From Candidatus Latescibacterota bacterium (GTDB lineage Bacteria; Hydrothermota; Tepidihabitantia; Tepidihabitantales; CAIPLT01), in assembly GCA_018335915.1 (NCBI GenBank), contig JAGXRL010000122.1, positions 1 through 38,708 of the forward strand: a stretch of 38,708 bases of DNA, written 5' to 3'. The notes under the pieces are model-generated. The model did not search any database. It saw only the letters and a program-made list of their open reading frames with translations, and was not told the origin of the DNA. Positions within the stretch are counted from its first letter, which is position 1. The number at the start of each line of letters is the position of its first letter. Below are positions 1 through 23,457 of the stretch, piece by piece. The position numbers and the translations under genes are program-made.

Positions 1-296
1 GCTGGACCAAGACCCGGGTTTTTGAAGAAATCAGAAAACTCGGCGGCAAAGTTGACAAGTGTTTTGTCATCTTTGACCGACAGCAGTCGAGCACCGAATC
101 ATTGAAAAAACAAGGAGTTGATCTATACTCACTCACTAATATTAAAGCTGCCCTGTCCAGAAATATCCCCAAAACCATTACTTATCTGACTGACGATGAA
201 TACAAAGAAATCAGAGCTTATTTCCAGTCACCCCAAGTCTGGCACGAGAATAAAGGTTTTAAATACCACGAATTAACCAAACATAAACCAAAATGA
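1..296 (+). CDS. pyrE: Orotate phosphoribosyltransferase, C-terminal part (5' end outside window)
   Basis: This is the 3' end of a gene read in the frame starting at base 3, giving about 97 residues before TGA at 294-296. The stretch KCFVIFDRQQSSTE followed by LKKQGVDLYSLTNIKAAL matches the last strand and helix of orotate phosphoribosyltransferases (the 'DR..G....L...G..L.SL' region downstream of the PRPP-binding loop). The family makes orotidine 5'-phosphate from orotate and PRPP in pyrimidine synthesis. The PRPP loop itself lies upstream of the window, so the catalytic site cannot be checked. An approximately 30-residue C-terminal tail continues past the usual end of the fold. The next gene is purD, separated only by a palindromic repeat, which is consistent with a nucleotide-synthesis cluster. 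Confidence 0.72.
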   Translation, partial: WTKTRVFEEIRKLGGKVDKCFVIFDRQQSSTESLKKQGVDLYSLTNIKAALSRNIPKTITYLTDDEYKEIRAYFQSPQVWHENKGFKYHELTKHKPK

Positions 297-378
297 AACC
301 ACAGATTACACAGATGGACACGGATTTAAGAATTGTAATTTTGTATATCCGTCTAATCCGTGAAATCCGTGGTTACAA
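297..378 (+). repeat. Family 1 palindromic repeat (CCACAGAT...ATCCGTGG), full copy
   Basis: The left arm reads aaccacagattacacagatg and the right arm ends atccgtggttac. The two arms are imperfect inverted complements around an AT-rich centre. The right arm stops 2 nt before the purD start codon. This is the reference copy for comparison with partial copies at 2177-2250, 17961-17992, 21605-21660 and 23436-23457, and with the in-frame copy at 12740-12811. Confidence 0.85.
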
Positions 379-2177: not shown

Positions 2178-2250
2178 AACCACAAGATTTCACCATATTC
2201 TCACAAAAATTATTTTCTGTGTTAATCCGTGTTAATCCGTGGTTACAAAA
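2177..2250 (+). repeat. Family 1 palindromic repeat
   Basis: The left arm is aaaccacaagatttcacc and the right arm is atccgtggttac, with an additional internal atccgtgtta unit. It starts at the stop codon of the phosphatase and ends just upstream of the Shine-Dalgarno site of the acyl-CoA dehydrogenase. Confidence 0.8.
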
Positions 2251-2261
2251 TTGGAGGTAAA

Positions 2262-3413
2262 ATGAATTATTTCTTAACCGATGAACAAAAAGAAATCAAG
2301 CAATTAACCCGAAAACTTGCCGAAGAACTGGTTAAACCAGTCCGCCAGGAATTGGATGAAAAAGGTGAGTTTCCGCATGATATTATGAAGGAATTTTCTA
2401 AAGCCGGACTCTTGGGTATTTATATACCCGAAGCATATGGCGGTGCGGGCGGCGGTGTTTTTGAAATGTGTCTGGTCGTCGAGGAAATCTCCCGAGTTTG
2501 CGGCGGTGTTGGTGTTTGTTATGCTGCCAATGGTTTAGCCGCCTATCCGATAATCTTATCCTCATCAGAAGAGCAGAAGAAAAAAATCCTGCCCAAAATG
2601 GCATCTGGCGAATGGATTGGCGCATTTGGTTTGACCGAACCCGATGCCGGTTCTGACGCTTCAAGCATTAAAACTACGGCAATCAAAGATGGTGACCATT
2701 ATGTCTTAAACGGTACCAAATGCTTTATTACCAATGGCGAAGTTGCCCATCTTTATACAGTAATTGCCAATACCAGTCCAGAACGGGGTAGCCGCGGACT
2801 CTCGGCATTTATTGTTGAAAAAGGTACGCCCGGATTTACATTTGGCAAACATGAAAATAAACTTGGCATTCGTGCTTCAGTAACTGCTGAATTAATCTTT
2901 CAAGATTGCCGGGTGCCGGTTGAAAACCGTATTGGCACTGAAGGAACCGGCTTTATCACGGCAATGAGAACTTTTGACCGAACCCGTCCTGGTGTTGGTG
3001 CCCAGGCGCTCGGCATTGCCCAAGGTGCTCTGGAAGCGGCGACTGATTATACATCCAAACGTGTCCAGTTTGGTGCACCCATCTCCTCACTTGAAGGTAT
3101 TCAATTCAGATTAGCTGATATGGCAACAAAAGTTGAAGCTGCCCGTGCTTTAGTTTATTCTGCGGCACGATATGCTGACTCTGGTGCTAAAGATGTCGCA
3201 GGTTTTTCGTCAATGGCAAAACTATTTGCCTCAGATGTCGCAATGTATGTAACGGTTGAAGCGGTCCAGTTATTCGGCGGCTATGGTTATATGAAAGACT
3301 ATCCAGTCGAAAAGATGATGCGTGATGCCAAGATTACCCAGATTTATGAAGGCACTAATGAAGTACAAAGATTGGTCATTGCCCGAGAACTCTTGCGGGG
3401 GAAAATCTTCTAA
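2262..3413 (+). CDS. Acyl-CoA dehydrogenase
   Basis: This FAD-dependent acyl-CoA dehydrogenase (383 residues, normal length) oxidises an acyl-CoA to the trans-2-enoyl-CoA. Visible family marks are [14 protein letters not shown] at the N-terminus, [14 protein letters not shown] (FAD/substrate loop), and [19 protein letters not shown] near the C-terminus. In the last of these, Glu363 of YEGT is the catalytic base position. The ATG at 2262 is chosen over an upstream in-frame ATG at 2229, because GGAGG sits 6 nt before 2262 and the upstream ATG lies inside the repeat. Chain-length specificity (butyryl, isovaleryl or other) cannot be read safely. No electron-transfer flavoprotein genes lie in the window. 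Confidence 0.93.
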
Positions 3414-4263: not shown

Positions 4264-4707
4264 TAACCACGAATGACACGAATTGACTAATTACACGAAC
4301 AAAGAAATATTTTATAAAGATCTTTCTTATACAATAATGGGCGCTGCGTTTGAAGTTCATAAAACCTTAGGACCTGGCTATACTGAGAATATCTACGAAG
4401 AGGCATTCGTACAAGAATTAGAAAGTAGAAAGCTGAGGTTTTCCAGACAAAAGAATATTAAAGTATTATATAAAGGTAAACAAATTGGCGAATATAAACT
4501 GGATATGATTGTTGAAGATAAAATTATTTTAGAACTCAAAGCCGTATCTGCGATGAATGAACTTTTCGAATCACAACTGATTTCATATCTCAAAGCAACC
4601 GGAATGAAACTCGGTATAATTATTAACTTTGGTACAAAAAAAGTCACTTATAAAAGAATTGCCCGATGAAAATTCGTGCTATTCGTTTATTCGTGTAATT
4701 CGTGGTA
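4264..4707 (+). repeat. Family 2 palindromic repeat (CCACGAAT...ATTCGTGG) enclosing the GxxExxY gene
   Basis: The left arm (4264-4300) begins taaccacgaatgacacgaat. The right arm (4671-4707) ends tcgtgtaattcgtggta. The reverse complement of the right arm (taccacgaattacacgaat and onward) closely matches the left arm. The GxxExxY gene occupies the space between the arms and begins inside the left arm. A copy with the same arms but no gene lies at 16544-16632. Confidence 0.8.
4283..4669 (+). CDS. GxxExxY protein (PD-(D/E)XK nuclease fold, PDDEXK_3)
   Basis: This small protein (128 residues from a TTG start) belongs to the GxxExxY family. GAAFEVHKTLGPG leads into the name-giving motif GYTENIY, and the nuclease core reads YKLDMIVEDKIILELKAV, with the Asp and the ExK of the PD-(D/E)XK fold. 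The family is predicted to be nuclease-like, and its role is not established. The start is uncertain. The TTG at 4283 lies within the left repeat arm and has no ribosome site. The next ATG (4337) would remove the first helix, which is usually conserved. The gene is bracketed by arms of a palindromic repeat, which suggests that gene and repeat arrived as one unit. It is separated from signal peptidase only by the left arm. Confidence 0.85.
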   Translation: MTNYTNKEIFYKDLSYTIMGAAFEVHKTLGPGYTENIYEEAFVQELESRKLRFSRQKNIKVLYKGKQIGEYKLDMIVEDKIILELKAVSAMNELFESQLISYLKATGMKLGIIINFGTKKVTYKRIAR

Positions 4708-5281: not shown

Positions 5282-5728
5282 TAATCACGGATAAGATTCA
5301 AAACTTGTCATTCTGAAGGAGCGAAGCGACTGAAGAATCTCTCTTTTTTACCACAAGATTTCACAGATTTTCACAGATGTCATTGCGAGCAAAGCAATCT
5401 CCATTGAAAATTGATAATTTACTAGTTTGTCATCCTGAACTTAATTCAGGAACTAATTTTTCTTGAAGTAATAATTACTTTCTTCTATACTCTCCCAAAA
5501 ACAATATATCTCTCAGTATAATCGCGTTTGCCAACTTTAGAGAAAACAACTTTCTTTCATAAAAACTGCAATTCAAACTAAAAAAGATTAGTGAATTTAC
5601 ATCTTATCTCAATATGAAAAGGCAGACCCATACGCGACCTTATAATACGCTTACCAGATAAGATTGACCTGGAATATTGCTGACAAACGGCCGACATTGA
5701 CCCTGCCCTGCCCTAGCCCCTCAAATAT
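5282..5728. repeat. Repeat-filled intergenic region, no gene seen
   Basis: Four different short repeat types lie side by side. They are tcattctgaaggagcgaagc and continuation (about 5308-5342), a Family 1-like left arm ccacaagatttcacag (5351-5378), gtcattgcgagcaaagcaat (5380-5400), and gtcatcctgaacttaattc (5429-5448). The remaining roughly 270 bases to 5728 are AT-rich with no convincing reading frame, promoter or RNA structure. Confidence 0.65.
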
Positions 5729-8124: not shown

Positions 8125-8180
8125 CCACTGAGATTCAAAGAACACCGAGAAAAACTCTGTGCCTCTGTGTCTCTGTGGCT
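8125..8180 (-). repeat. Family 3 palindromic repeat (CCACTGAG...CTCTGTGG)
   Basis: ccactgagattcaaagaaca at one end and tctgtgtctctgtggct at the other form imperfect inverted arms made of 7-8-nt sub-units, the same design as Families 1 and 2. It fills the gap between pruA and the cDPG-synthase-like gene. Confidence 0.65.
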
Positions 8181-11566: not shown

Positions 11567-11574
11567 CTAATGTT
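11462..11574 (+). repeat. Paired element copy 1 (shared ends with 38598-38708)
   Basis: It begins tcgactcagggggc, has ccatca about 6 nt later, and ends with a 22-bp perfect palindrome (11553-11574) of half-sites AACATTAGTTA / TAACTAATGTT. The inverted copy at 38598-38708 has the same start, the same ccatca and a palindrome differing only at the two central bases, at nearly the same spacing. The middle parts do not align. The stop codon of the M23-like gene lies inside the palindrome. On the minus strand the palindrome is followed by six T, so here it may double as a weak terminator. Confidence 0.7.
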
Positions 11575-13531
11575 GGATATAAACCATTGGTTTTATTATC
11601 AATAACTTGCGGACATTATTACTATCCTTGCGGTAAAAATAAATCCCTGGTTTTAAATAGGTTGAATTCACTTTCTGCCCCAACGCATTATACATAACGC
11701 CTTGGCTGTATTTTATTTGTCCACGATTAGCAATATCGTATTCTTCTATTGCCGGAGCATTGGCAACTGTCACCTGCATTGAACAAACCGAGACATTATC
11801 ACTCGCATCTGAAGCATAGATTTTAACCCAGTAATCTCCATTTGGAAAATTATTTGTCTGCCAGGAAAATGCGGCATCAGTTGTTTCGACAATACTATCG
11901 CCGTCAGTATTTGTGACAATAAAGAAATAATCCCGATAATCATAATTACCTCTGGTTCGGCAGGTATTATCTGATTTATATACAACATTTACTGTATTAC
12001 TTGGAGGAATTACCTTATCAAAGATAAATGACAACTTCTTTGGTTGAGAAACAGTTTGCCCAATTATCTCATACTCGATTTTTAATGGCGTCAGCCGGTC
12101 CCAGATTGTATCACCGGTCGAAACACTAAATTTGTCGTGTATCTTGGCAATAATATCGACATCGCCATTAAGATTTGATGAAGATAAATAAGTAGAAGTA
12201 TTATTCCGGGTAAAAGCAAATTTTTGGTTAGTTAAAGCATTCTCAAAGCGCGGTGAAATTGTATCCTGGTTGGGCGATAAAGATATTAATGGATTAAACA
12301 CAAAAGCCCAATCTGCCGCTGTCCAAGTTGCACCGCGGTCGCGGATTTTAGCAAAATGAATATGGTGAAAATGGATACTGTCAACTGGCCAGTACACCAG
12401 ATAACCAATCAATTCACCAACCTGAACCGTATCACCAATATCTTTATGATATAATGCTGAATCAATATGAGCATAAAGATATGCATTACACGAATCCGTA
12501 TAACTCAAGGATGAATCAGCAATCGCAAACCGCCAGTATAAATAATTGCCAGTCGAAAGCCATGCTTTAATATAGCCTCTTTTAACTGCATAAACCGGCA
12601 CATTTGGTATTTCTGGCGAAAGAATATCAACGCCCGGATGATAATAAGACGAACCGCCATAATTCTGAAACTCAGCCCAGCTGTTCCCAATCGGATGCAA
12701 TGAATCAGTTGGCGCCAATGGCCAGGGAATTGTGTCTTGTTGTAACCACGGATTTAACTGATTAGACGGATTATTCGAAAATCGGTGAGAATCTGTGTAA
12801 TCTGTGGTTTGTAATAAGGTGTTTTCTTTAACAAACCACTCTCTCAGATGTGTCTTTGCTTTTATACCATCTGGTAAAATTTGAATATCCCCAATCTGCT
12901 CGTCATACTGCTGATATTGAAAATTCTCTTCCTGAATAATTTGTCCATTTAGTGATAAAACATAGATCTTACCATTTAAAGATGGCCGGCTTTCTAATGC
13001 TAAAATAATCTTATCATTACTAAACTTACAAAATATCAATGGTTCAGTAAACTCTTTGGTCCATAATTTTTGCCGGTCATCCAGACCAATCAAACTAAAA
13101 TGATTTCTCATCATTACACCGAGATATTGATTATCGCCTGAAAATACCAGTTGTCGTATTGCCGGCGAGATGACTCTTATTTGGAATAGCAATTTACCTT
13201 GCTCATACAATCTGATATTGTCATCACTCGCGCAAATCAGATATTGGTCATTTGAAGATACGGCAAACATTCCTTTATCTCGAATTAGACTGACCCGCTG
13301 ACCTTCGCCGTTATAAACATTTATTCCATCGCTATTAAGAACATATAGATATTGTCCTTCAGGAGCTGTTTTGTAACCATAAAAATCAGGAACAATTAAT
13401 TCTTTTAGAATTTGACCTTGCTCTAAATAGAACCTGACTTGCGCAATATATTCATTTTGCTGAATATCAATAAGGTTATTCCCTAAATTAAATACACCAA
13501 TGCTGAAACATAGGAAAACAAATGCGCTCAT
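11567..13531 (-). CDS. Secreted M23 peptidase-like protein with C-terminal sorting tail
   Basis: This 654-residue protein has a signal-peptide-like N-terminus (SAFVFLCFSIGVF). Residues about 40-235 hold short beta-propeller-like repeats. An M23/LytM-type metallopeptidase domain follows at about 290-420: HPGVDILSPE, then NAYLYAHIDSAL, then HFHHIHFAK, which correspond to the HxxxD, YAH and HxH zinc ligands. A beta-rich region then precedes the tail VMYNALGQKVN...LKPGIYFYRKD, which resembles type 9 secretion-type sorting tails. A complete Family 1 repeat is read in frame (12740-12811), giving LQTTDYTDSHRF and NPSNQLNPWLQQ. The promoter is leaderless. The substrate is probably peptidoglycan or protein, but whether it is active is unproven. 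Confidence 0.78.
   Translation of the reverse strand: MSAFVFLCFSIGVFNLGNNLIDIQQNEYIAQVRFYLEQGQILKELIVPDFYGYKTAPEGQYLYVLNSDGINVYNGEGQRVSLIRDKGMFAVSSNDQYLICASDDNIRLYEQGKLLFQIRVISPAIRQLVFSGDNQYLGVMMRNHFSLIGLDDRQKLWTKEFTEPLIFCKFSNDKIILALESRPSLNGKIYVLSLNGQIIQEENFQYQQYDEQIGDIQILPDGIKAKTHLREWFVKENTLLQTTDYTDSHRFSNNPSNQLNPWLQQDTIPWPLAPTDSLHPIGNSWAEFQNYGGSSYYHPGVDILSPEIPNVPVYAVKRGYIKAWLSTGNYLYWRFAIADSSLSYTDSCNAYLYAHIDSALYHKDIGDTVQVGELIGYLVYWPVDSIHFHHIHFAKIRDRGATWTAADWAFVFNPLISLSPNQDTISPRFENALTNQKFAFTRNNTSTYLSSSNLNGDVDIIAKIHDKFSVSTGDTIWDRLTPLKIEYEIIGQTVSQPKKLSFIFDKVIPPSNTVNVVYKSDNTCRTRGNYDYRDYFFIVTNTDGDSIVETTDAAFSWQTNNFPNGDYWVKIYASDASDNVSVCSMQVTVANAPAIEEYDIANRGQIKYSQGVMYNALGQKVNSTYLKPGIYFYRKDSNNVRKLLIIKPMVYIQH
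12740..12811 (-). repeat. Family 1 palindromic repeat inside the M23-like gene, in frame
   Basis: Read on the minus strand it begins caaaccacagattacacag and ends taaatccgtggttacaa. It therefore carries both arms of the element seen at 297-378, including the internal atccgtctaatc unit. It adds about 24 codons without breaking the frame. Confidence 0.85.
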
Positions 13532-13612: not shown

Positions 13613-14350
13613 ATGGCGATGCGAAAAAATATACCAGCACTGGTTGCGATTGTAAACCGTAAAAAAGATTGGCATATTATCTGCAATCAGCACTGGTATC
13701 GGATTCCAGTCAAGAGCGCGCCCGATATACTAAACAACGCGAAATATATCGCTTTTTATCAAACTAAACTATTTAAACAGGAACAATACTCAGTCAATTA
13801 TTATGCCAAGATTATGAATATCGAAATCTGCAAGCGCTGCCAATTACTGCCTGATGAACCTGAACACAAACGGGCAAACCAGGATTATTATAAAATTTTA
13901 ATTGATGATGTAATAAACTTACCAAAACCGATTCCGAGTTTACGCTGGCGTCGCATCACTTTTATTCCAACTACGCTATCAAGATTACTCAAAGCCGAGG
14001 AAATCAATGATTTATGGTGCACCAGCTTTATCGAAGATAAATTATACAACGCATTAAAAAAAGAAGACCTTGCTGCGGAACGGCAATTTTTTGTCTATGA
14101 TGCGGATACACCGTATTGCCTGGATATGGCAATTTTCTGTAAAGACGGTAATCTTAATGTCGAATGCGATGGTGAGAAATATCATTCTGATATCAAAACC
14201 ATTCGAAAAGACCGTCAAAGAAACAATGACCTGACAACTGCTGGCTGGTCAATTCTCCGTTTTTCTGGCAAAGAGATTAATCAAGATACCCAAAAGTGTG
14301 TCAAACAAATTAAACAGACCGTAAAAAGATTAAAAGGCATTAATAGATAA
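13613..14350 (+). CDS. DUF559 endonuclease-domain protein
   Basis: This 245-residue protein has a C-terminal DUF559 (very-short-patch-repair-like, PD-(D/E)XK) domain. The sequence CLDMAIFCKDGNLNVECDGE gives the catalytic Asp and the E-x-D pair, followed by KDRQRNNDLTTAGWSILRFS, which is the family's typical 'R..Y/L...G....R' end. The first 110 residues include ICKRCQLLPDEPEH, a single CxxC that does not form an evident zinc site, and have no recognised domain. The biological role is unknown. Such genes are often horizontally acquired. It converges with the following minus-strand gene and overlaps its end by 11 bases. Confidence 0.8.
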   Translation: MAMRKNIPALVAIVNRKKDWHIICNQHWYRIPVKSAPDILNNAKYIAFYQTKLFKQEQYSVNYYAKIMNIEICKRCQLLPDEPEHKRANQDYYKILIDDVINLPKPIPSLRWRRITFIPTTLSRLLKAEEINDLWCTSFIEDKLYNALKKEDLAAERQFFVYDADTPYCLDMAIFCKDGNLNVECDGEKYHSDIKTIRKDRQRNNDLTTAGWSILRFSGKEINQDTQKCVKQIKQTVKRLKGINR

Positions 14351-16648: not shown

Positions 16649-17935
16649 ATGGATAAACGCGAAGCATTATTAATTATCAACAAACTCGGCAGTACTGGCA
16701 CGCCGCCGGAAATAGGTATTGAAGAATTTACCATCGGACTCGATAAATATCTCAAAGTAGTCGATTCTGAATACTTAAACGGCATCTTGAAAAACTATCA
16801 TCTCTCTTCATTCAAAATCGTGATTGGCAATTATGGCGGCGGCAAAACCCATTTTCTTTATTCAATCCGCAATCTTGCTTTTAAAAATAATTATGTGGTT
16901 GCTTATGTTGCTTTAAATCCGACTGAATGTCCGTTTGACAAGCTGGAACTGGTTTACAAACAGGTTATCAATAATATTCAGATACCAGCCCCGGATAATG
17001 ATATTATGACTCCGCCGATTACTGGTATTGAAGCGTTTATCGAGCACTGGTACAACTCGGTCAAAGAAAAAATCAATCACATCGATGCAATTAATGATTA
17101 CTTAAATGTATTAAAAGGCGTTGAGAGCATCAGTTTCTTGAATGCGGTTAAATCTGCTTTCTTTAATATTGCCAGTGATAATTATGAAGAGTTTCAGGCA
17201 GTTTTACAATATCTCAAAGCAGAAGACATTTCCAAAGATATCAAAGCCCGTTACCGTATCTCAGAGCGGGTTGACAAATCGACCGCCTTTCGGATGATAA
17301 GAAGTCTGATTCAATGGTTACATCTGATTGGTTACAATGGTGTTATTTTTCTGTTTGATGAAGCTGAGCGCGGCATTTCAATGTCCAGCTCAAAAGACAA
17401 GCGCAAAGCTTTGGATAACCTGCGCCAGATTGTTGATGAATGCGGCAACAGCCGGTTGCCTGGCGCAATGTTTTTCTATGCAATCCCAGATGAAAATCTT
17501 TTATTAGAAGGTTCGGGCGGCGTGTACGAAGCATTAAAACAGCGCTTGCGCAGTGTCTTTTCCCAGGTCAATCCCTTAGGAGTGAAAATTAATCTGGAAG
17601 AACTCGGTATTGCACCTGAAGATTTTCTGATTTCTCTCGGTCAAAAACTGGTCTCTATCTTTGAAACCGCTTACTCGTTCAAACTGGATAAAGATAAAGC
17701 ACAGGCATTAATTGAGCATATTGCGGACGAATCTGCCAAAGCATTTGCGTATGATATCAGTTATCGCCGGCTCTTTGTGGTCAGTTTGATTGAAACCCTG
17801 CAAAGAGTCCGCAATGAACCCGATTCTCTGCAATCAATTTTAACAAGCAGTAAAGAAACCCAGAAAATAATCAAGACTACTGGTAAAAAGCTCGAAACAC
17901 AAACCAAACAGGAAGTAACCGATTCAGAGTTTTAG
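16649..17935 (+). CDS. BrxD/DUF2791-like P-loop ATPase, first of two
   Basis: This AAA+-type ATPase has 428 residues. Walker A is GNYGGGKTHF (residues 60-69) after the strand FKIVI. Walker B is GVIFLFDEAERG, with Asp237-Glu238. The following block SSKDKRKALDNLRQIVDECG leads into a sensor-like strand GAMFFYAIPDENLL. The layout (short N-terminal domain, P-loop near residue 60, DEAE Walker B, then R-rich helices) matches DUF2791 proteins, which include BrxC/BrxD of BREX phage-exclusion systems. No Shine-Dalgarno site is evident, since a repeat fills the gap upstream. It is followed by a second ATPase and a helicase. It is likely a DNA-associated motor or loader, and the exact role is unknown. 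Confidence 0.72.
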   Translation: MDKREALLIINKLGSTGTPPEIGIEEFTIGLDKYLKVVDSEYLNGILKNYHLSSFKIVIGNYGGGKTHFLYSIRNLAFKNNYVVAYVALNPTECPFDKLELVYKQVINNIQIPAPDNDIMTPPITGIEAFIEHWYNSVKEKINHIDAINDYLNVLKGVESISFLNAVKSAFFNIASDNYEEFQAVLQYLKAEDISKDIKARYRISERVDKSTAFRMIRSLIQWLHLIGYNGVIFLFDEAERGISMSSSKDKRKALDNLRQIVDECGNSRLPGAMFFYAIPDENLLLEGSGGVYEALKQRLRSVFSQVNPLGVKINLEELGIAPEDFLISLGQKLVSIFETAYSFKLDKDKAQALIEHIADESAKAFAYDISYRRLFVVSLIETLQRVRNEPDSLQSILTSSKETQKIIKTTGKKLETQTKQEVTDSEF

Positions 17936-17960: not shown

Positions 17961-17992
17961 ATCCGTGTTCATCTGTGTTAATCCGTGGTTAC
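17961..17992 (+). repeat. Family 1 right-arm repeat
   Basis: atccgtgttcatctgtgtta then atccgtggttac, ending 4 nt before the ATG at 17997. No left arm is present. Confidence 0.75.
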
Positions 17993-17996
17993 AAGT

Positions 17997-19415
17997 ATGA
18001 TAAATAATAAAAAAGTTTCACATCCGGTTTTTGGCGCCGGTGAACTTTTATCAATCCGTAAATCATCAGCCGGTATTCAGACCGAATGTTTAATCCGTTT
18101 TGACTCGGGTCTGCAGTTATGGATTCCATCCAATCGGATTCAGGGACTGGAACCAGAATATCACGACCAGGTTCCTGAAAACGGCGTCGTTTTAAGCCAA
18201 GAAGAATTAAAAATCAAAGCCCATCGCATGATTGAAGCATTCAGATTAGGAATCGTGCCGACCCAGGATGTCGCGGATTTTACTTTTGGTCGGGAACGCG
18301 AAATTAATCTTATCTCGTCTGCTTTAACCAGTCTTACTAATGGCAAAGGCGGCACTATTATTTTTGAAGGTGAATATGGCACGGGTAAATCGCATCTTTT
18401 AGAATATATCCGCAGCCAGGCACTCAAAAAGAATTTTCTGGTCTCCTCAGTTGAATTATCAACTGAAGAAACTGCGCCAGCCCGGCCCAAACGAATCTAT
18501 CGCGAATTGATTGCCAATCTGCGATTTTTATCCAACAACAAACAACCAATAACTGACGCGAAGCGTAGCATTAGCAACAACCACATTGAAGCCGGATTTC
18601 GCGACTTAATGCGCGATGCGACTCAGCAGTACACAGAGCCCGATTATCTCGGTATTAAAGAACACATCTTTTTCGCACCAGTATTAAAACGCTTGTCAAA
18701 AATCGATGACCAGAGTTTAAAATCTGAAGTCTTCTGGCAGTGGATTGAAGCGGAAAGCACCAAAGAATATGCAGTCGGCACTTCAACAAAAACCGACAAG
18801 TATATGTCGCCTTATCGTATTTCTGGCGGTTGGAACATCCCTGCTCTTTATGATTTTTCCACTGCGGCAGATTTTTATTGTTATCTAATATCGGGCTTAT
18901 CCTATCTGTCCCGAAAACTCAATTATAATGGATTGGTTTTATTACTCGATGAAGTCGAGACCATTGCATTCTTATGGAACAATCTTTTATTTGAGCGGGG
19001 AGTCAATTTTCTGGAAAGTATGATTCGGGTCTCGCACAATGACCCGACCTTAAAACATTTCAATAAACAAATGCTGCATAATCAAGTGCGGCCAACTCCT
19101 TATATTTATAAAGATGCTTATGTCTTGTTAATCCTGGCTATGACTCCTGAACCAGCTGCCTTACGGCTCAAACAATTATCGCATAATGATATTAATCTTA
19201 ACCCGCTCAGTGAAGAGCATCTTAATGCTTGTTTTGAGACTCTGGTTAAACACTATAAGATTGCTTTTCCAGATTTGTCTTTAGCAGACTCAACCAAGCA
19301 AAAAATATTGACTAATGCTTTGCGCTATCAGGACAACGGCATCCGCTTCTTTCTAAAGTACACTGTCGAAAGCTTGGATGTAATTAGAATAAACCGAAAA
19401 TTAGCAGTAAATTAA
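17997..19415 (+). CDS. BrxD/DUF2791-like P-loop ATPase with N-terminal Tudor/KOW-like domain, second of two
   Basis: This protein has 472 residues from the ATG at 17997. An in-frame GTG at 17985 lies in the repeat and is rejected. Residues 5-50 (VSHPVFGAGELLSI through IRFDSGLQLWIPSNRI) resemble the small KOW/Tudor-like domain seen at the ends of UvrD-type helicases and in CarD-like proteins. FGREREINLI starts the ATPase. Walker A is EGEYGTGKSHLLEYI (about 124-138), and Walker B is NGLVLLLDEVETI (Asp318-Glu319). Between them a roughly 170-residue insert contains TDAKRSISNN, whose DNA resembles a repeat unit at 21616-21640. Together with the first ATPase it may form a hetero-oligomer. DUF2791-type membership is inferred from motif spacing. 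Confidence 0.72.
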   Translation: MINNKKVSHPVFGAGELLSIRKSSAGIQTECLIRFDSGLQLWIPSNRIQGLEPEYHDQVPENGVVLSQEELKIKAHRMIEAFRLGIVPTQDVADFTFGREREINLISSALTSLTNGKGGTIIFEGEYGTGKSHLLEYIRSQALKKNFLVSSVELSTEETAPARPKRIYRELIANLRFLSNNKQPITDAKRSISNNHIEAGFRDLMRDATQQYTEPDYLGIKEHIFFAPVLKRLSKIDDQSLKSEVFWQWIEAESTKEYAVGTSTKTDKYMSPYRISGGWNIPALYDFSTAADFYCYLISGLSYLSRKLNYNGLVLLLDEVETIAFLWNNLLFERGVNFLESMIRVSHNDPTLKHFNKQMLHNQVRPTPYIYKDAYVLLILAMTPEPAALRLKQLSHNDINLNPLSEEHLNACFETLVKHYKIAFPDLSLADSTKQKILTNALRYQDNGIRFFLKYTVESLDVIRINRKLAVN

Positions 19416-21601: not shown

Positions 21602-21664
21602 TTTTAACCACAGATGGACGCGTAGCGTAGCGATAGCAACACAGATTGACACAGATTTATAGTC

Positions 21665-23435: not shown

Positions 23436-23457
23436 TATCCGTGTCTATCCGTGGCTT
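23436..23457 (+). repeat. Family 1 right-arm repeat in the aminopeptidase leader
   Basis: tatccgtgtctatccgtggc, with the GTGG end toward the gene, followed after a few bases by AGGAGG. Confidence 0.6.

Follow-up and report, generated by a model that had tools for sequence, protein, structure and literature searches.

A palindromic repeat read in frame between the domains of a putative peptidase, and the family to which it belongs

Described coding palindromes and the present repeat family

Rickettsia palindromic elements (RPEs) are described in a review as short palindromes lying between genes and also in frame within unrelated genes (Ogata 2000, 2002, as cited in PMC10969869); they measure ~150 bp, enter ORFs unusually often and are reported from Rickettsia. 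A second described case is that of intragenic REPs with a GTAG/CGTC tag, which occur in frame as stretches of 20–30 residues in DNA synthesis and repair genes and tRNA synthetases, and are argued to be possibly neutral in linkers and loops (PMC3733652). The repeat analysed here is similar to RPEs in being intergenic as well as in frame in several unrelated genes, with orthologs that lack it. However, it is shorter (50–91 bp), mostly intergenic, and has an arm found in ~18 phyla rather than in Rickettsia. Its smaller size and wider distribution suggest a different family, so that the likeness to RPEs drawn in an earlier note on this DNA holds for the kind of event, an in-frame palindromic insert, but probably not for the family itself.

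With intragenic REPs the repeat has in common coding palindromes and some kinds of host gene (Mfd, PriA-like, LeuRS), and CGTC REPs, too, are without a dedicated transposase. It differs from them in having neither the GTAG/CGTC tag nor linkage to RAYTs, and in carrying about three 10-base units per arm compared to stems of 5–13 bp. PARCELs (PMC2996958) are likewise coding sequences with dyad symmetry and a punctate occurrence across distant clades, but they are tandem 25-residue domains within ORFs, whereas the present repeat is dispersed, mostly non-coding and read in several frames. MITEs (PMC10969869) share the small size, non-autonomy and inverted symmetry; the present repeat differs from them in lacking an identified parent transposon, and no target-site duplication stands out at 35 intact copies, whose flank repeats average 3.51 versus 3.20 when permuted, a value reached by 37 of 300 permutations.

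The core of the repeat reads ACCAC[A/G]GATTnACAC[A/G]GATT... loop ...AATC[C/T]GTGnAATC[C/T]GTGGT, with 50–91 bp between intact ends. Each arm consists of about three units of 10–11 bases, CACRGATTn, and outside the ACCAC..GTGGT core the bases vary freely (TGAA, TTTA; TTCA). The organism's own genome (1.93 Mb in 159 contigs) gave 44 BLAST matches, many of them to half copies; the census of the family was compiled from searches and sequence stretches and is not exhaustive. Within the window, by which we mean the whole stretch of 38,708 nucleotides that was analysed, every arm other than those of the peptidase-gene copy lies between ORFs or at the upstream edge of an ORF (Table 1). Covariation between the arms of single copies was also considered and rejected: the match of an arm to its own partner is no better than to arms of other copies over 10–20 nt, and hardly better over 28, and because the two are nearly equal, maintenance of the hairpin is not demonstrated.

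Repeats built on the same scaffold from other words are seen in the window at 4268–4283, 4689–4704 and 8163–8177. In the own genome, CCACAGAGACACAGAG has 51 matches when one mismatch is allowed (2 for the reversed control), and CACGAAT-n-CACGAAT has 40 (0 for the control). These sister repeats suggest a superfamily of CAC-plus-four-base repeats. Towards the end of a 242-aa ORF elsewhere in this genome (L272:2056-2781(+)), words of the types CACRGAT and CACGAAA lie in frame a short distance apart (KPQINTDEHRLEQEDNHESTKDRKHE).

The repeat copy in the peptidase gene

The earlier note had placed both arms of an intergenic repeat (297–378) on the reverse strand of a peptidase-like gene and had read them as translated without a break in the frame. 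Both statements hold: a full-length copy is present, its 5' arm is identical to that of the intergenic copy, and the ORF of 654 aa remains open throughout.

Table 1. Coordinates of the repeat copies, arms and host-protein parts in the window
Feature	Position	Strand	Remark
Full-length palindromic repeat copy	12741..12810	-	translated as residues 241-264 (QTTDYTDSHRFSNNPSNQLNPWLQ)
5' arm ACCACAGATTACACAGAT	12791..12808	-	identical to 298-315(+)
3' arm TAATCAGTTAAATCCGTGGTTA	12743..12764	-	2 mismatches to 354-375(+)
Intergenic full-length copy just before purD-like ORF 379-1632 (start codon 379)	296..377	+	whole-copy match, profile; ORF by Pfam
Degraded copy at upstream edge of ORF 2229-3413	2178..2247	-	
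Family arm between ORFs 16649-17935 and 17985-19415	17971..17987	-	
Family arm, intergenic	5362..5378	+	
Family arm, intergenic	21640..21656	+	
Family arm, intergenic	23437..23453	-	
Host ORF, 654 aa: propeller-like domain, repeat-bearing linker, M23/LytM-like domain, C-terminal tail	11567..13531	-	
Beta-propeller-like N-terminal part, residues 11-206	12914..13501	-	single-sequence AF2, mostly pLDDT 60-89; Foldseek to WD40/YVTN propellers
M23/LytM-like part, residues 268-378	12398..12730	-	PDB 3nyy, E 7.5e-5
Possible Por_Secre-type C-terminal sorting tail, residues 616-645	11597..11686	-	E 0.056, below cut-off

The copy accounts for 70 bases and ~24 amino acids of linker. Its 5' arm agrees with that of the intergenic copy at 18 of 18 bases, against a chance expectation of 0.02 for the window with up to three mismatches, and its 3' arm has 2 mismatches over 22 bases (expectation 0.00); the two arms stand in the correct order and at the correct spacing. 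Aligned over its whole length, 12741–12808 matches the copy at 298–377 with an E of 9e-10, and 12741–12810 is 84% identical to the family consensus (E 5e-16) and scores 59 bits against the family profile. The arms pair on folding (z -2.1; 6 of 200 shuffles fold equally well). Rfam gave a single match in the window, a tRNA located elsewhere, and up to an E of 1 no family overlaps 12741–12810. In translation the repeat appears as the peptide words TTDYTDSHR, FSNNPSNQLNPWLQQ and NPWL.

The host gene is a putative surface or secreted peptidase. While the protein has no Pfam match at 0.001, its residues 268–378 are a LytM-like sequence match and, as such, a putative M23 peptidase domain, which would begin four residues past the repeat. 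The single-sequence AF2 model of the whole protein has a mean pLDDT of 43 and is confident only over about residues 11–206; as it is uninformative beyond residue 206, the term linker refers here to domain limits and variability rather than to structure. The position assigned to the repeat in the earlier note, between propeller-like and M23 domains, agrees with these limits. An ORF resembling endonucleases of the MTES_1575/DUF559 type adjoins the peptidase gene at 13613–14350(+).

Six full-length orthologs were compared, three from the same family (genomes G003, G004 and G001, with 62%, 59% and 59% identity, respectively) and three from the same order. The repeat residues are absent from all six. 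The stretch from AKTH to WPL spans 48 aa here, versus 38, 39 and 40 aa in the sister genera and 34 aa in each of the three orthologs from the order, leaving a net excess of 8–10 codons over same-family and 14 codons over same-order orthologs. Since the repeat itself occupies 24 codons, a net gain of 8–10 means that ~14–16 older linker codons are gone, and for the same reason this gene does not by itself demonstrate a clean insertion. The earlier note had expected ~24 residues to be missing from orthologs; this is true of the residues themselves but not of the net length. It had also held that the same residues in distant orthologs from repeat-free genomes would refute an inserted repeat. Two of the genomes (G001 and G004) have no repeat-family match at E 0.01, and their orthologs lack the residues as the others do, so this check leaves the reading standing. 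The G003 genome has eight repeat-family matches, all elsewhere than in the peptidase gene.

Compared with G003, the two sides of the gene flanking the repeat show 58% and 67% identity, and the linker 32%. Differences at codon positions 1/2/3 number 77/46/129 on one side and 102/73/195 on the other, with an excess at third positions; on this comparison the flanks are in frame and under purifying selection. The G003 linker was considered as a decayed copy of the repeat and rejected, as its local score of 17 (shuffle mean 14.8) was reached by 100 of 500 shuffles.

We conclude that a copy of a non-autonomous palindromic repeat very probably entered the peptidase gene after the split from the sister genera and was kept in frame in a variable linker. 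The repeat would have arrived in a surface or secreted peptidase gene once this lineage had parted from the sister genera, landing in frame between the propeller-like and M23-like domains, and would have been retained because the gene's frame coincided with the only frame of this particular copy that is free of stops. It would now provide 24 linker residues, with ~14–16 ancestral linker codons gone. What took place may have been an insertion accompanied by loss of ancestral linker or, alternatively, a later replacement of it. We infer that a mobility event brought the copy to this site and that the protein tolerates the segment rather than making use of it.

Further in-frame copies

The claim that the family can become coding sequence is borne out by further full-length in-frame copies in the own and a sister genome, at sites which are empty in orthologs. 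A radical-SAM gene of the same genome (contig C132, 170–243) contains a second full-length in-frame palindrome, read as KPRMNTNKHEFNKAKNLSNPCNPWL. In G003, which belongs to a different genus, a shortened copy occupies the same site (KPSNRSNPRNPWL), and the site is empty in G001, G002 and G004. The gain relative to G002 is ~23 codons, which points to a nearly clean full-length insertion, most simply placed before the split of the two genera. The same gene (L012:1-519(-), contig C132:377-392) also has an in-frame CCACAGAGACACGGAG word (NTTETRRHRE), where relatives have unrelated residues. A helicase of G003, which we read from its sequence as PriA-like, contains a full in-frame palindrome (MKPLIEPIKRIKDNEEKSVSIRVNPWLQ); the ortholog in the own genome is without the copy, the net difference being +18 codons. 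Near the repeat site, this PriA-like protein (L302, L303, L304) seems to be missing a portion of the second helicase domain normally found there. The frame of the 3' arm is the same in all three full-length cases (peptidase, radical-SAM and PriA-like), reading NPWL.

Other genes carry arms rather than the full palindrome. In one genus of the same order, leucyl-tRNA synthetase (LeuRS) is extended by arms of the PQITQITQI type, by 36 residues in G024 and by 26 in G027; the site is plain in four congeners. These arms are direct and not inverted, so a single arm, and not the palindrome alone, can be the repeated unit. Mfd of the same genus has ~120 extra residues in G027, ~30–45 with shorter traces in G018 and G023, and few, if any, in the other genomes; the G027 protein (L254) contains several in-frame repeat units, and together with its congeneric orthologs of differing length it gives the appearance of an expansion series. 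In-frame arms are also found in an FdhA/NuoG-like protein of a Brocadiia genome (L104) and in PrmC of Treponema (L170), where the array is common to two genomes and absent in a third. In all four proteins (LeuRS, Mfd, FdhA, PrmC) the repeat residues are located between Pfam domains.

Coding copies are nevertheless a small minority. Of the 149 exact 20-base arms counted in public-genome loci, 8 fall within open frames that are 150 aa or longer and extend 40 aa to either side; homology supports only some of these eight frames, namely those of FdhA and PrmC. The elements show no excess of stop-free frames over shuffles (figures below), which would fit survivorship, whereby copies that break genes would be lost and those in frame in linkers or loops would stay. 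An alternative is functional exaptation, with the repeat residues selected for spacer length, protease resistance or surface contact. Agreeing with this are the several in-frame copies between domains, some of them long kept, as at the radical-SAM site in two genera and in the PrmC array of two Treponema genomes. Coding sites, however, drift and change in length as tolerated filler would (the radical-SAM copy is shorter in G003, and the LeuRS and Mfd inserts vary within a genus), coding copies are few, and selection of the element for open frames is unsupported, as it has 1.83 stop-free frames versus 1.68 in shuffles. We therefore regard exaptation as unlikely, and tolerance in a linker as the better description of the peptidase segment.

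Distribution, mobility and significance

The exact 20-mer AACCACAGATTACACAGATT is present in at least 119 stretches from 84,980 species genomes, where ~0.5 would be expected by chance (random sequence of uniform base composition, 257 Gb, two strands). By NCBI-style names, the matches listed cover ~18 phyla, archaea included. Aminicenantes, Spirochaetes, Chloroflexi, Firmicutes, Planctomycetes, Bacteroidetes and Nitrospirae are among the matches listed, as are Cyanobacteria, Cloacimonadota, WOR-3, Patescibacteria and archaea (Methanophagales, Syntrophoarchaeum). Since MAGs make up most of the carriers, binning may be wrong in some cases; isolates such as Laspinema olomoucense are also among them. 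In Bacteroides finegoldii records deposited as plasmids, copies lie between co-directional genes or overlap the 3' end of a gene. Carriage by phages was considered and rejected, the exact 20-mer occurring in just 9 stretches of 2.9 million viral contigs. None of the family sequences tested was found in the literature searched; a described name may exist outside that literature, and the family is apparently undescribed so far.

The palindrome is dispersed, and present or absent at orthologous sites. As a working guess, its mover would be hairpin-mediated copying, by template switching or a trans-acting enzyme, and not a cut-and-paste transposase. Two of the three full-length coding sites have lost host codons, which would fit copying or repair accompanied by small deletions. 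Could the family instead be a REP that a Y1 (RAYT) transposase mobilises? It is palindromic and mostly intergenic, and a Y1_Tnp gene exists in the own genome. Yet that locus has no family arm within 1.5 kb, and the same is true of all 30 Y1_Tnp genes from 13 repeat-bearing genomes (92.6 kb); further to that, G003 bears the repeat with no detectable Y1 gene, and the GTAG/CGTC tag is absent among the common ends of copies. A Y1-moved REP is thus a distinctly improbable identity for the family.

A mobility event could also be mimicked by misassembly, as assemblies misjoin at repeats: two contigs joined at the repeat would yield a chimeric ORF. The genome is a 159-contig draft with a multi-copy repeat, and the second case, the radical-SAM gene, lies near a contig end and continues on another contig. 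Against this, one and the same ortholog aligns with both flanks of the peptidase copy, correctly ordered and in frame, which is hardly expected of a chimera, the 70 bp element is shorter than a usual read, and two genomes from different genera carry a copy at the radical-SAM site; we hold an artefact to be very unlikely. Even less credible, despite a linker that varies in sequence and length among orthologs, is that the residues are ancestral and resemble the repeat by chance, or that the repeat was born from the peptidase gene, given an arm identical at every base, both arms correctly ordered and spaced, residues found in none of the six orthologs, and ortholog linkers that match the family no better than shuffles do.

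Beyond the insertion into the peptidase gene, we tentatively raise a broader picture, to which we give somewhat less than even chances. It would comprise one family with an arm conserved letter for letter between phyla of bacteria and archaea, without a recognisable transposase and repeatedly coding between domains of conserved proteins, as part of a larger CAC-plus-four-base class (CACRGAT, CACGAAT, CACAGAG) with a common copying machinery that prokaryotes at large would share.

Frames of the repeat resemble small proteins. In a hydrothermal-vent survey (PMC13321764), the most frequent predicted antimicrobial peptide was TLLKKPQITQITQIFTRLKLVKIRAIRGFFQ, from three Chloroflexota MAGs. This peptide reads like a translated copy of the present repeat and may be one; searched as a pattern, it was not found in the repeat-bearing loci collected here.

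The behaviour described is already known from RPEs and intragenic REPs; what stands out here is how widely one conserved arm is distributed and how many clean empty-site comparisons there are. The best-known protein-coding palindromes are those of Rickettsia, along with intragenic REPs in some other species. With one family spread over many phyla and accompanied by empty-site orthologs, the building of proteins by repeats becomes testable outside obligate parasites.
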